Shown one piece after another: positions 16,812 to 22,290 of a stretch of 64,000 nt of DNA (position 1 is its first letter; each line of letters begins with the position of its first letter). The DNA is from Candidatus Rifleibacteriota bacterium (GTDB lineage Bacteria > Muiribacteriota > Ozemobacteria > Ozemobacterales > Ozemobacteraceae). The position numbers and the translations under genes are program-made. The notes below the pieces were generated by a model. It was given only the letters and a program-made list of their open reading frames with translations, made no database searches and was not told the origin of the DNA. The DNA is taken from the NCBI GenBank assembly GCA_012517355.1, contig JAAYVD010000071.1, positions 1 to 64,000 of the forward strand, in the 5' to 3' direction.

Positions 16812-18047
16812 ATGAAGGAACACCCGCGCGACTCCGGGGGTGACCGCCTCGCCATCGACGGCGGCACGCCCGTCCGCACCGCCCCGTTCCCGCCCTGGCC
16901 GGTGTTCGCCCCCGACGAGATCGAGGCGGTCGAGCGGGTGGTGCGCTCGGGGAAGGTCAACTATTGGACGGGCACCGAGGGCCAGGAGTTCGAGAAGGAA
17001 TTCGCCGCCTTCACGGGCACCAGGCACGCGGTGGCGCTGGCCAACGGCACGGTCGCCCTCGAGCTGGCCCTCTTCGCGCTGGGCATCGGTCCCGGCGACG
17101 AGGTCATCGTTCCCTGCCGCACCTTCATCGCCACCGCCAGTTGCGCCGTCATGCGCGGGGCGCGGCCGGTCGTCGTCGACATCGACCCCGACAGCCAGAA
17201 CGTGACCGCCGCCACCATCGAGCCGGCCATCACCCCGGCGACGAAGGCCGTCATCGTGGTCCACCTGGCCGGCTGGCCGTGCAACATGACCGAGATCATG
17301 GCCCTGGCCGACCGGCACGGCCTGAAAGTCATCGAGGACTGCGCCCAGGCCCTGGGCGCCCGCTGGCAGGGCCGACCGGTCGGGTCCTGGGGGCACGCGG
17401 CGGCCTTCTCGTTCTGCCAGGACAAGATCCTGACCACCCTCGGCGAGGGCGGCATGCTGGTCACCAACGACACCGCGGTCTGGGAACGCGCCTGGCAGTT
17501 CAAGGACCACGGCAAGAGCCACGACGCCATGTTCCACCGCCAGCACCCGCCCGGCTTCCGCTGGGTCCACGAGGGGTTCGGCACCAACTGGCGCATGCTC
17601 GAGGTGCAGTCGGCGCAAGGTCGCGTCGCCCTGCGCAAGATCCCCGCCTGGGTCGACCACCGCCGCCGGGCCGCCGCCTTCCTCAACGAGGCCCTCGCCG
17701 ATCTGCCCGCCCTGCGCCTGACGCTGCCGCCCGCCGACGCCTTCCACGCCTACTACAAGTATTACGCCTTCCTGCGCCCCGAGCGGCTGCAGCCCGGCTG
17801 GACCCGCGACCGCATCCAGGCCGCCATCGCCGCCGAGGGCATCCCCTGCCTCGCCGGCAGCTGCGGCGACATCTCCCGCGAACTCGCCTTCCGCTCTCGC
17901 GGCTGGGGCCCCGCCTACCCCCTCGTCGCCGCCCCCCGCCTGTTCGACACCAGCCTGATGTTCCTGGTCCACCCCAGCGATGACGCCACCGTCCCCGGCC
18001 ACACCCAGGCCGCCATCCGCCGGGTCCTGGCCGCCGCCGCCTGCTGA
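16812..18047 (+). CDS. DegT/DnrJ/EryC1 PLP-dependent sugar aminotransferase (PglE-type candidate)
   Basis: This 411-residue enzyme transfers an amino group to a keto nucleotide sugar. Typical motifs are VNYWTGTEGQEFEKEFAAFT, ALANGTVALELAL, GDEVIVPCRTFIATASC, VIEDCAQALGA and the PLP lysine at about residue 205 in SFCQDKILTTLGEGG. With the PglF-, PglD- and PglC-like genes nearby, amination at C4 on the way to bacillosamine is the likeliest role; perosamine-type synthesis is an alternative. A TTG at 16773 overlapping the previous stop could be an earlier start, but family homology begins after the ATG at 16812. A decayed second copy of this gene lies at 21750-22290. Confidence 0.85.
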   Translation: MKEHPRDSGGDRLAIDGGTPVRTAPFPPWPVFAPDEIEAVERVVRSGKVNYWTGTEGQEFEKEFAAFTGTRHAVALANGTVALELALFALGIGPGDEVIVPCRTFIATASCAVMRGARPVVVDIDPDSQNVTAATIEPAITPATKAVIVVHLAGWPCNMTEIMALADRHGLKVIEDCAQALGARWQGRPVGSWGHAAAFSFCQDKILTTLGEGGMLVTNDTAVWERAWQFKDHGKSHDAMFHRQHPPGFRWVHEGFGTNWRMLEVQSAQGRVALRKIPAWVDHRRRAAAFLNEALADLPALRLTLPPADAFHAYYKYYAFLRPERLQPGWTRDRIQAAIAAEGIPCLAGSCGDISRELAFRSRGWGPAYPLVAAPRLFDTSLMFLVHPSDDATVPGHTQAAIRRVLAAAAC

Positions 18048-18290: not shown

Positions 18291-18593
18291 GTGACCGACA
18301 TCTTCCTGGAGAGGCTCCGCCGTAGGCTTTTGGTCCGCATCGGCAAACTTCAGCAGCAGGAGGTCGATTTCGTCGTCGAGCGCCATGGCCAGCGGAGGTA
18401 TTACCAGGTCTGCTACCTGCTCGCCAGTCCGGCGACCGTCGAGCGCGAGTTCGGGGCCCTGGAAACAATCCCCGACCACTTTCCCAAGTTCGTCCTGTCG
18501 ATGGACACCACCGCCCAACCTTCCCGCAGAGGAATCACCTGGAAAAACCTGGTCGCCTTCCTGCTCGAAGAGGACCACCCCGCCCCGAACTGA
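18291..18593 (+). pseudogene. C-terminal relic of an AAA/DUF4143 ATPase
   Basis: A 100-codon frame starting at a GTG reads QQQEVDFVVERHGQRRYYQV, then CYLLASPATVEREFGALETI, then FPKFVLSMDTT. This matches the nuclease-like C-terminal end of DUF4143 ATPases (E-V-D-F-V followed by Q-V and L-x-S-M-D). The Walker ATPase part is absent and no promoter palindrome precedes it. It is therefore read as the remnant of a third copy beside the two complete genes at 18872 and 20409, although a small stand-alone protein cannot be excluded. Confidence 0.7.
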
Positions 18594-18871: not shown

Positions 18872-20200
18872 CTATTCCAACGAAGCCGGCAGATCGAGCA
18901 GAAAACGCCAGGCCGGCACCGCCTCGATGGTTCCGCCATCGATGGCGATGCAATCGCTCTCGTGACGGGTCACGATGGTGCCGGTGCCCAGGCCCAGTTC
19001 TGCCATCGCCTCGCGCAGGGCTGTCGTTTCCCGCTTCCGCGTGAGCGGGTCGGCCAGGGTCTCGCACACCTGGAACAGCCGTCGCCGGCCCCTCCCCGGG
19101 AGAACGAAATCGACCTCCCGGCCAGTCCTGGTCTTGTAGTAGAAAATGGACGGATGATAATGCCGGAGGGCGGCGAAGACGAGGCTTTCCAGGAGACGGC
19201 CGGAGTTGGTCAGGATTCCCGACGACACCGAGGTCACCAGGGCATGATCGATGCAGTAGATCTTCTTGGGATTGGTGTTGCTGCGGGCGAGGGAGGGGTC
19301 GTAGAGGCGCACCGTGAACAGGAAGTAGGCATCCTCGAACCATTCCAGATATTCCGACACCGAGGTCTTGGGAACCTTGTGCCCCAGAGATTTCAGGTAG
19401 CCCGTGAGGTTGTTGACCGAGTAGAGCGAGGCCGTGTTGTCCACCAGCCAATGCGCCAGGTCGATCACGGCCCTCGGGTGCGGGATATCGTGGCGCTCGA
19501 TCAGGTCCCGCAACAGGATGGTATGAAAGTATTCCTGGTGGATCCTGATTCGCAGGTTCCGCTTGAGTCCGGCAACCTCTGGAAAACCGCCGGTTTCCCA
19601 GAATTCCCCGAAGGCCTTTTGGACCAGGAGCCGTTTCTTCGTCGACAGCGCTCCGCCGGTCTCGATCTTCTTGAAGTCCAGGAATTCCCGGAACGAGAAC
19701 GGGAACATCTCCCAGGAGATGGCCCGCCCGCGCATCTGGGTGGCGATCTCCTTCGATAGCATCCTGGCCGAGGAACCGGTCAGGTACACCTCGCAGTTCT
19801 CGGTTCGCAAGAGGCGGTCGACGAAAGGCTCCCACCCGGGAACCGCCTGGATCTCATCGAAGAAGCAGTAGACCTTCTCGCTGTGCTTCTTCTCGGGGTA
19901 GACCGCGAAATACGCTTCGGTGACCAGGCCGAGGTTGTCCTGCCGCAGGCCATGGAGGCGGTCGTCGAAGAAGTTCAGATACAGGATGTTCTGCCGCGGG
20001 ATGCCTCGGTCCAGCAGGCCCTGGATGACCTGGAACAGGAACGTCGACTTGCCCCCCCGCCGCACCCCGATGCAGACCGCCGCCTTGCCCTTCACCGTCT
20101 CGACCGGCACCCGCCGGGGCACCCCGGTCTCCAGGCGGGTCTCCTGGAAATCCAGGATGATGGCTTTGATCGTCTCGATCACCTGATCCCTCCCGGTCAT
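18872..20200 (-). CDS. AAA-family ATPase with DUF4143 C-terminal domain
   Basis: This 442-residue protein has Walker A GVRRGGKS at residues 45-52, Walker B in YCFFDEIQAVPGW near 115-125, sensor-like LTGSSARML, then a winged-helix segment and a C-terminal PD-(D/E)XK-like strand REVDFVLPGRGRRRLFQVCE. This AAA_14/DUF4143 layout is common in bacteria and archaea. Its molecular job is not established, and such genes are usually accessory and occur in multiple copies. It is transcribed divergently from a second copy at 20409. A sigma70 promoter whose -10 lies in a perfect palindrome precedes it at 20225-20263, which suggests autoregulation. Confidence 0.9.
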   Translation of the reverse strand: MTGRDQVIETIKAIILDFQETRLETGVPRRVPVETVKGKAAVCIGVRRGGKSTFLFQVIQGLLDRGIPRQNILYLNFFDDRLHGLRQDNLGLVTEAYFAVYPEKKHSEKVYCFFDEIQAVPGWEPFVDRLLRTENCEVYLTGSSARMLSKEIATQMRGRAISWEMFPFSFREFLDFKKIETGGALSTKKRLLVQKAFGEFWETGGFPEVAGLKRNLRIRIHQEYFHTILLRDLIERHDIPHPRAVIDLAHWLVDNTASLYSVNNLTGYLKSLGHKVPKTSVSEYLEWFEDAYFLFTVRLYDPSLARSNTNPKKIYCIDHALVTSVSSGILTNSGRLLESLVFAALRHYHPSIFYYKTRTGREVDFVLPGRGRRRLFQVCETLADPLTRKRETTALREAMAELGLGTGTIVTRHESDCIAIDGGTIEAVPAWRFLLDLPASLE

Positions 20201-20224: not shown

Positions 20225-20244
20225 CCGGTAAATATTTTTACCGG
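20225..20244. promoter_or_regulatory. Perfect palindrome (operator candidate) for the ATPase gene at 18872-20200
   Basis: CCGGTAAA-TATT-TTTACCGG is a perfect 8-base inverted repeat with a 4-base spacer. A further half site ACCGG lies at 20272-20276. The palindrome covers the -10 element of the promoter below. Confidence 0.75.
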
Positions 20245-20263
20245 TTTATTGCCATATTGTCAA
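20235..20263 (-). promoter_or_regulatory. Sigma70 promoter for the minus-strand ATPase
   Basis: On the minus strand TTGACA (20263-20258) and TAAAAA (20240-20235) are separated by 17 bases. The -10 overlaps the palindrome, so a bound repressor would block it. Confidence 0.65.
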
Positions 20264-20348
20264 GAATAATGACCGGTTATCCCCCACCACCCGACAGCGC
20301 AGGAGTTTCCCTCCCCCGCCCAACCCGTCAGCAACCTGGTGGCCTATC

Positions 20349-20377
20349 TTGACTTTTCTCACGTGCTTGAGTATTTT
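20349..20377 (+). promoter_or_regulatory. Sigma70 promoter for the plus-strand ATPase
   Basis: TTGACT at 20349-20354 and TATTTT at 20372-20377 are 17 bases apart. The -10 lies inside the palindrome at 20368-20383. Confidence 0.65.
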
Positions 20378-20395
20378 TACTCATCATCCTGAGTA
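20368..20395. promoter_or_regulatory. TGAGTA palindrome (operator candidate)
   Basis: TGAGTATTTTTACTCA at 20368-20383 is a perfect 6-base inverted repeat with a TTTT spacer. A third direct TGAGTA half site follows at 20390-20395, just before the ribosome binding site GGAAGG of the ATPase gene at 20409. Confidence 0.75.
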
Positions 20396-20408
20396 ATTTG
20401 GAAGGACC

Positions 20409-21617
20409 ATGTTCGAACGACCGCTGGGCAGGATTCTCGAGCAACGGTGGCGCGAGCCCCGCCGGTTCCTGCTGCTGCTCACCGGACCCCGCCAGACCGG
20501 CAAGACCACCCTGGTCCGCCAGGTCCTGGCCCGGTTCCGGGGCCCCTCCCGCTACGCTGCGGCCGACGCCGCCCAGATCCAGGGGTCCTCCTGGATCGCC
20601 GGGCAGTGGGAACTCGCCCGCCTCGGCCTCCGCCAGGCGCCCGCGCGCCAGAAGAGGTACGGCGGCCTCCTCGTGCTCGACGAGATCCAGAAGATTCCCG
20701 GGTGGTCCGAAACCGTGAAGCGGCTGTGGGACGAGGACACCCGCCACGGATTTCCCCTGCGGGTTGTCCTGCTGGGCTCCGCCCCCCTCCTGCTGCAGCG
20801 GGGAACCGCCGAATCATTGGCGGGCCGGTTCGAGCGGCTCACCCTCGGCCACTGGTCTTTCCCGGAGATGCGACAGGCCTTCGGCTGGGATGTGCCCACC
20901 TTCCTGTTCTTCGGCGGGTATCCCGGCGCCGCCACCCTGATCGGGGATGAGCCCCGCTGGGCAGCCTACATCCGGGATTCCCTGATCGAAGCCACCCTGG
21001 CCCGCGACATTCTGGAAATGACCCGCGTCGACAAGCCCGCCTTGATGCGGAACCTGTTCCTGCTCGGCTGTCAGATGGCTGGTCAGGTCGTGTCCTATCA
21101 GAAGATGGTCGGCCAACTGCAGGACGTTGGCAACACCACGACCTTGGCCCATTACCTCGATCTGCTCGGCAACGCCGGTCTCCTGGTCGGCCTGGAAAAG
21201 TGGTCGGGCCAGGCCCTTCGCCGCCGGGCGTCCAGTCCCAAGCTTCTTCCCTTGAACACCGCTCTGGTCAGCGCGCTCTCCGGCCATTCCGCCGCCGCGG
21301 CCAGGGCCGACCACGCCTGGTGGGGCCGCCTGGTGGAAACCGCGGTGGGCGCCCACCTCTGGAGCGAGGCGACCGCCCTGGGAGCCACCCTGACCTGGTG
21401 GCGGGAAGGGCCCCAGGAGGTCGATTTCGTGGTCTCCCGCGGCCGACGTCTCCTGGCCTTCGAGGTGAAAACGGGCACCACCCGGACCTCCCTCCCCGGC
21501 ATGACTCGCTTCCTCACCGCCAACCCTCGAGCCACCCCGCTCCTCATCGGCCCCGACGGCCTCCCCCTGGAAACATTCCTGACGACCCCGCTCGAAACCC
21601 TGCTGGCGGACACCTGA
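20409..21617 (+). CDS. AAA-family ATPase with DUF4143 C-terminal domain, second copy
   Basis: This 402-residue protein has Walker A GPRQTGKT at residues 26-33, Walker B GLLVLDEIQKIPGW near 86-98, and LLGSAPLLLQR as sensor 1. The C-terminal nuclease-like strand pair is PQEVDFVVSRGRRLLAFEVK. It is a distant paralogue of the minus-strand neighbour, sharing architecture but little sequence outside the motifs. It has its own promoter with a different palindrome. GGAAGG sits three bases before the ATG, closer than usual. Role unknown; presence of a third fragment nearby suggests repeated gain of such genes at this site. Confidence 0.9.
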   Translation: MFERPLGRILEQRWREPRRFLLLLTGPRQTGKTTLVRQVLARFRGPSRYAAADAAQIQGSSWIAGQWELARLGLRQAPARQKRYGGLLVLDEIQKIPGWSETVKRLWDEDTRHGFPLRVVLLGSAPLLLQRGTAESLAGRFERLTLGHWSFPEMRQAFGWDVPTFLFFGGYPGAATLIGDEPRWAAYIRDSLIEATLARDILEMTRVDKPALMRNLFLLGCQMAGQVVSYQKMVGQLQDVGNTTTLAHYLDLLGNAGLLVGLEKWSGQALRRRASSPKLLPLNTALVSALSGHSAAAARADHAWWGRLVETAVGAHLWSEATALGATLTWWREGPQEVDFVVSRGRRLLAFEVKTGTTRTSLPGMTRFLTANPRATPLLIGPDGLPLETFLTTPLETLLADT

Positions 21618-21749: not shown

Positions 21750-22290
21750 ACCATGAGGGCATCCATGATCGGCCAAACCGGACCATCCGCCCCGGTCCCC
21801 ACCGGTCGGCAGTCGTTCGCTGTTTTCAAACGGTGTGTTGACCAACCCGGCAAAGGCTTTGGGCACACCTCGACATCGACCACCATCGCGAAGCCAGGCC
21901 ACCTGATTTGCGCGGCCTGGCCCTCCATGCTATCGTGAAGGCAATTATGGGTTCCCCGCGAAAACCACAGCCGGTCCCGACCGACATGGTGTTGGAAGGC
22001 TCCCCCCCCTGCCGCCACCGCTGGAGATGCGCAACATCGGTTTCCCGCAAGGCAATAGGGTCGCCCGAGAGAATGCGCTTCCTGACGCCCGAGCGGGATC
22101 ACCTCGACAGGACCCGCACCTGCATACAGGGCACCATCGCCGCGGAGGGCTTTTCTCTCCTCCCAGGCAGTTGCGGCGCCATCTCCCGCGCACTTACTAT
22201 CTGCTTCCGTGATTGGTTCGCGCCTACCCCCTCGTCACGGCCAATCGTTTCTTGGACGCCGGCCGATGATGCTCCAAAGTCCATCCCCCG
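21750..22290 (+). pseudogene. Decayed copy of the DegT-type aminotransferase gene
   Basis: Nucleotides 22105-22255 align closely with the 3' part of the aminotransferase gene at 16812 (about 17806-17945): shared runs include CATCGCCGC, GAGGGC, TGCGGCG, CATCTCCCGCG and CCTACCCCCTCGTC. Patches further upstream (around 21745, 21835, 21870 and 22030) match its start, its VRSGKVNYW region and its middle in the right order, with large deletions between them. No open frame survives. It lies directly upstream of wbpB-type and wbpD-type genes, just where a functional aminotransferase gene would be expected. The remaining parts of 21618-22362 show nothing else. Confidence 0.72.

Follow-up and report, generated by a model that had tools for sequence, protein, structure and literature searches.

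Autoregulated toxin-antitoxin promoters and the controller (C) boxes of restriction-modification systems carry private palindromic operators, which lie over the unit's own promoter and are specific to that unit.

PDC-S01 is a candidate single-gene defence system of PADLOC that joins an ATPase to a PD-(D/E)XK-like domain. According to PMC12988326 it ranks fourth among the defence systems of prokaryotes, with 29,494 bacterial and 9,986 archaeal systems. DUF4143 is mentioned in a study of Thermus Argonaute, in passages that do not touch on operators (PMC4406477). In the open literature searched, with most subscription journals and preprints outside it, neither operators nor autoregulation nor sites on phage DNA are described for PDC-S01 or DUF4143, and the titles and abstracts contained nothing relevant on COG1373 or PF13635/PF13173. 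Because of this coverage, the novelty of DUF4143 operators and of autoregulation is provisional.

In the window (the whole stretch of DNA analysed, 64,000 nucleotides of a Candidatus Rifleibacteriota genome), both proteins of a divergent gene pair match PDC-S01 strongly. Sequence comparison suggests that each of these DUF4143 ATPases is probably its own transcriptional regulator, acting through a private operator array.

The gene pair and its two promoters

The two genes diverge from an intergenic region at approximately 20.2-20.4 kb of the window. Both proteins have the AAA_14 + DUF4143 architecture, with scores above the curated cut-offs, and PADLOC assigned the two to different PDC-S01 models (E 2.9e-105 and 2.3e-159). 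The whole 7.1-Mb genome contains 12 DUF4143 matches. The PDC-S01 genes of the window are:

18872-20200, minus strand: gene 1, 442-aa AAA_14 + DUF4143 ATPase (PDC-S01 model PDLC04787)
20409-21617, plus strand: gene 2, 402-aa AAA_14 + DUF4143 ATPase (PDC-S01 model PDLC04791)
18291-18593, plus strand: remnant of a third PDC-S01 gene (C-terminal 100 aa; PDLC04787, E 1.1e-26, profile positions 319-409)

The remnant adjoins the ATPase pair. The cluster sits between two stretches (17768-17927 and 22078-22236) that are 77% identical; the former lies inside an aminotransferase-like gene belonging to a polysaccharide cluster and the latter resembles a degraded copy of the end of that gene, so the ATPase cluster may have come in with a partial duplication.

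AlphaFold2 (AF2) models (pLDDT 95 for protein 2 and 90 for protein 1) predict for both proteins an AAA+ ATPase, a winged helix and a C-terminal PD-(D/E)XK-like domain. Among solved folds, Foldseek placed them closest to the archaeal MNS ATPases SSO1545 and PAB2304 and to DNA-bound Orc1/Cdc6. A sequence search of the PDB returned no chain that is a convincing relative. The predicted winged helices are encoded at:

21036-21251, plus strand: winged-helix segment (protein 2, residues 210-281, with residues 243-255 as the recognition helix; AF2)
19253-19477, minus strand: winged-helix segment (protein 1, residues 242-316; AF2; Foldseek matches to SSO1545 and Orc1/Cdc6)

A preliminary description of this DNA had placed in front of each gene a palindrome covering the -10 box of a promoter with a 17-base spacer, together with one additional half-site. 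All of these elements are present, as follows:

20225-20244, no strand: operator 1, CCGGTAAATATTTTTACCGG, with the palindrome CCGGTAAA-TATT-TTTACCGG, covering the -10 box of gene 1
20272-20278, no strand: extra operator 1 half-site, ACCGGTT, at a distance of 32 bp from the copy at 20240
20235-20263, minus strand: gene 1 promoter, -35 TTGACA (20263-20258), 17-bp spacer, -10 TAAAAA (20240-20235)
20349-20377, plus strand: gene 2 promoter, -35 TTGACT (20349-20354), 17-bp spacer, -10 TATTTT (20372-20377)
20368-20383, no strand: operator 2, facing half-sites TGAGTA-TTTT-TACTCA, covering the -10 box of gene 2
20390-20396, no strand: third half-site TGAGTAA of operator 2 (TACTCA-N6-TGAGTA; the 12-bp step recurs in orthologues)

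The promoter scan of the 18-23 kb region found two sigma-70-like promoters (0.5 expected), exactly these two, and both -10 boxes fall within the palindromes; for gene 1 it also offered an alternative -10 box, AAAAAT, with an 18-bp spacer. The 32-bp offset of operator 1 is the best direct-repeat offset in the gene 1 orthologues L026 and L028 as well.

When each upstream region was compared on its own with dinucleotide shuffles, the inverted repeats were not significant (p 0.07 and 0.16). The significance of the palindromes derives instead from their uniqueness and from their conservation upstream of orthologues: operator 1 (CCGGTAA-N6-TTACCGG) and the full operator 2 site each occur once in the 7.1-Mb genome.

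The overlap of operator and promoter fits repression, which does not in itself prove the direction of control. That the ATPase activates its own promoter, in the manner of the STAND activator MalT, is improbable: the structural matches include MalT (8bob), but the arrays occupy the -10 box and the sequence downstream of it, and not the region upstream of the -35 box.

Conservation of the sites and covariation with the winged helix

A scan limited to one genome per species yielded 80 relatives of protein 2 (42-60% identical), with 78 usable upstream regions, from more than 20 phyla that range from Gammaproteobacteria to Bacteroidota, Chloroflexi, Verrucomicrobia and Omnitrophota. The preliminary description would have been contradicted by homologues lacking the palindromes; exact TGAGTA/TACTCA half-sites were found within 110 bp upstream of 66 of the 78 genes, at least two copies being present in 56. 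The mean number per gene is 2.17, approximately 100-fold above the background of 0.022 measured elsewhere in these loci.

The half-sites in these orthologues are regularly spaced, at 10 bp when facing, 12 bp when back to back and 22 bp on the same strand. The centre of the palindrome is a -10-like hexamer (TAAAAT, TAATTT and similar), and the sequence 16-18 bp from it, at the position of a -35 box, is nearer to TTGACA than at other offsets (3.25 versus 2.51 matches of 6). Among orthologue pairs with at least 50% protein identity, 81% share significant similarity at -100 to 0, compared with 1% at -220 to -120.

Sites of the ACCGG/CTGG-TAA...TTA-CCAG/CCGGT type occupy the equivalent position in gene 1 orthologues (65-80% identical; L025-L029 and L134-L137). 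In protein 2 orthologues of rumen and gut Bacteroidales (L109, L112, L116, L127, L129 and L131) direct repeats in iteron-like arrays have replaced the inverted arrangement, and the half-sites have changed as well (TTGAGAA, TTGAACA, TTGAAGA and CGGAGA).

No recurrent partner gene was found across the 80 orthologous loci, apart from a large downstream NTPase gene in one subclade and tandem DUF4143 genes. The toxin-antitoxin part of the earlier suggestion of a 'toxin-antitoxin or defence type' is thus unsupported, since a conserved partner gene is missing, while the defence part, itself unproven, agrees with the candidate family PDC-S01.

The large gene of the subclade lies directly 3' of the ATPase gene at 11 loci (L084, L086, L095, L096, L102, L105, L117, L120, L122, L126 and L133); an example encodes 1363 aa (L292:5082-9173, minus strand). 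Its product has Walker-type VLLGxPGxGKT and FIDGLDE motifs and appears NACHT-like by eye, and neither Pfam nor PADLOC gave a match. It is possible that the ATPase and the large NTPase form a two-gene defence operon with a shared operator.

The repeats extend beyond the protein 2 clade. Other DUF4143 subfamilies have different motifs at the equivalent position, either long palindromes (arms of up to 22 bp) or direct repeats. Upstream repeats (-100 to 0, p<=0.01) were detected for 52% of 216 non-redundant DUF4143 genes (still 50% without the protein 2 clade) and for 5% of 231 other ORFs; approximately half of the sampled DUF4143 genes thus have no individually significant repeat.

Upstream similarity was found in 79% of DUF4143 pairs with at least 50% protein identity, 48% of those at 40-50% and 5% of those at 30-40%, and in only 3% of pairs of unrelated DUF4143 paralogues within one genome. 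Since similarity tracks protein identity and is rare between paralogues of the same genome, the operator belongs to the gene and not to the genome: it is a private operator over the gene's own promoter, conserved with that gene and not common to paralogues. Some Bacteroidota genomes contain 20-30 DUF4143 matches (30 in G069, 29 in G163 and 24 in G186) and represent a natural set for the study of operator insulation.

These results make it very unlikely that the palindromes are bound by an unlinked regulator encoded by the host. Palindromes over -10 boxes are typical of repressor sites, and the ATPases are not annotated as regulators, but each full site occurs once in the genome, is retained across more than 20 phyla and differs between paralogues of the same genome.

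The recognition helix reads GNTTTLAHYL in most orthologues with TGAGTA sites and differs in most of those with other half-sites: for example, GNVTTLASYL accompanies TGAACA or TGAGAA, GNATTLVNYL accompanies TGAAGA, and GNTDVLAGYL accompanies TGGGTA. There are exceptions, namely orthologues that keep TGAGTA despite changed residues in this helix.

In a simple mutual-information scan against operator class the clade signal dominates, and phylogenetically matched pairs were therefore used. In 14 such ortholog pairs with different operators, the operator classes being assigned by eye, substitutions were relatively enriched in the winged helix (p 0.0007) and in its recognition helix (p 0.0013), whereas the AAA+ core and the C-terminal nuclease-like domain were not enriched. 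A helix N-terminal to the winged helix (residues 192-206) also scored in the covariation scan.

Covariation of the winged helix, together with the lack of a conserved neighbour that could supply a regulator, makes direct autoregulation the best reading. It is very unlikely that the array is a target or cleavage site of a restriction-like ATPase-nuclease. The intact E-V-D ... E-V-K motif of protein 2 speaks for this reading; against it, the array lies on a promoter and the nuclease is encoded in the same genome, and protein 1 and its relatives, in which QVC or QVx replaces the ExK of the PD-(D/E)XK motif, retain their operators.

Of 74 DUF4143 genes with strong direct repeats, 60 have offsets of 21-23 or 32-34 bp (controls: 6 of 18), which corresponds to two or three helical turns. 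It is also very unlikely that the repeats act as RNA hairpins in attenuation or translation control: an inverted repeat close to a start codon can fold, but here the repeats cover the -10 box and would be only partly transcribed, many relatives have direct repeats at 22-23 or 32-33 bp that form no hairpin, and the helical-turn spacing indicates a protein on DNA.

Operator copies in phages

The exact array TGAGTA-N4-TACTCA-N6-TGAGTA is present in at least 120 viral stretches of IMG/VR, with no match for the reversed control. Among the matches listed, approximately 106 fall into a single connected group of tailed phages (with terminase, portal and capsid-like proteins), and there are nine further phage groups, all small. 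Each of 20 whole viral records contains exactly one array, and none of these 20 encodes a recognisable relative of protein 2. The viral array lies mainly in non-coding DNA, at varied intergenic positions.

A 33-bp palindrome, TATCAAAACTTG...TTTTGATA, was found near the array in 31 of the 120 viral loci listed, compared with four matches in 827 kb elsewhere. Another DUF4143 ATPase, L221, has this palindrome as its operator (match score 26, control maximum 18.5). Orthologues of L221 retain the site, and in two of them (L530 and L531) a change in one arm is matched in the other. Searched alone, the L221-type site occurs in 102 viral stretches (control 0), in 47 of which a facing TGAGTA pair lies within 600 bp. 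The viral contigs concerned are L295-L414 and L542-L590 (IMG/VR).

The idea that the whole phage cassette is a mosaic of DUF4143 operators was not supported, as 43 DUF4143 upstream regions matched the cassette with a score of at least 15 against 51 for AT-rich DNA of the same phages, and only the L221 operator match outlived this control. For the AACTGGTAA-type operator of gene 1, the viral contigs gave a single match. Among named phages, a search with the array gave partial matches only, and the capsid-like protein of the main phage group had no match.

We tentatively consider that the non-coding phage cassette, with one copy each of the TGAGTA array and TATCAAAACTTG...TTTTGATA, might serve as a decoy that titrates several PDC-S01 ATPases; most of the array-bearing contigs come from one phage group. 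If it were true, the contact between ATPase and operator would be a front of the phage-host conflict, which would explain why every ATPase has a private, fast-changing operator, and phage copies of the operator without the gene would tie regulation directly to infection.

Probable autoregulation and comparison with known systems

Since the motif accompanies the gene across phyla, the ATPase probably turns off its own gene. That these are self-regulating units bound by the ATPases through the winged helix, as first proposed from the window, is well supported by the comparison: the operator travels with the gene, is unique and paralogue-specific, and covaries with the protein.

The following mechanism can be envisaged. 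The winged helix would bind its private half-site directly, two to four copies of which lie on one face of the DNA over the gene's own promoter; the AAA+ ATPase would oligomerise on the array, blocking RNA polymerase and keeping expression low, and would thus repress rather than activate. Release might be induced by the ATP state or by a signal of infection, such as phage DNA that offers competing sites, and the PD-(D/E)XK-like domain may have a role in defence.

If each protein reads a private operator through its winged helix, this would provide a handle on PDC-S01, a very common defence-like gene. Knowledge of the operator would allow prediction of binding sites from sequence, of an induction reporter and of the residues that change specificity.

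The proteins resemble the archaeal AAA+ proteins of the MNS clade (SSO1545 and PAB2304) and Orc1/Cdc6 in having an AAA+ core followed by a winged helix; in contrast to Orc1/Cdc6, the proposed site here is the promoter of the gene itself and not a replication origin. Compared with toxin-antitoxin promoters and C boxes, the present units differ in two respects: (i) a single polypeptide is involved, without a partner gene, and (ii) the operators form arrays in which the repeats follow one another at two or three turns of the helix.
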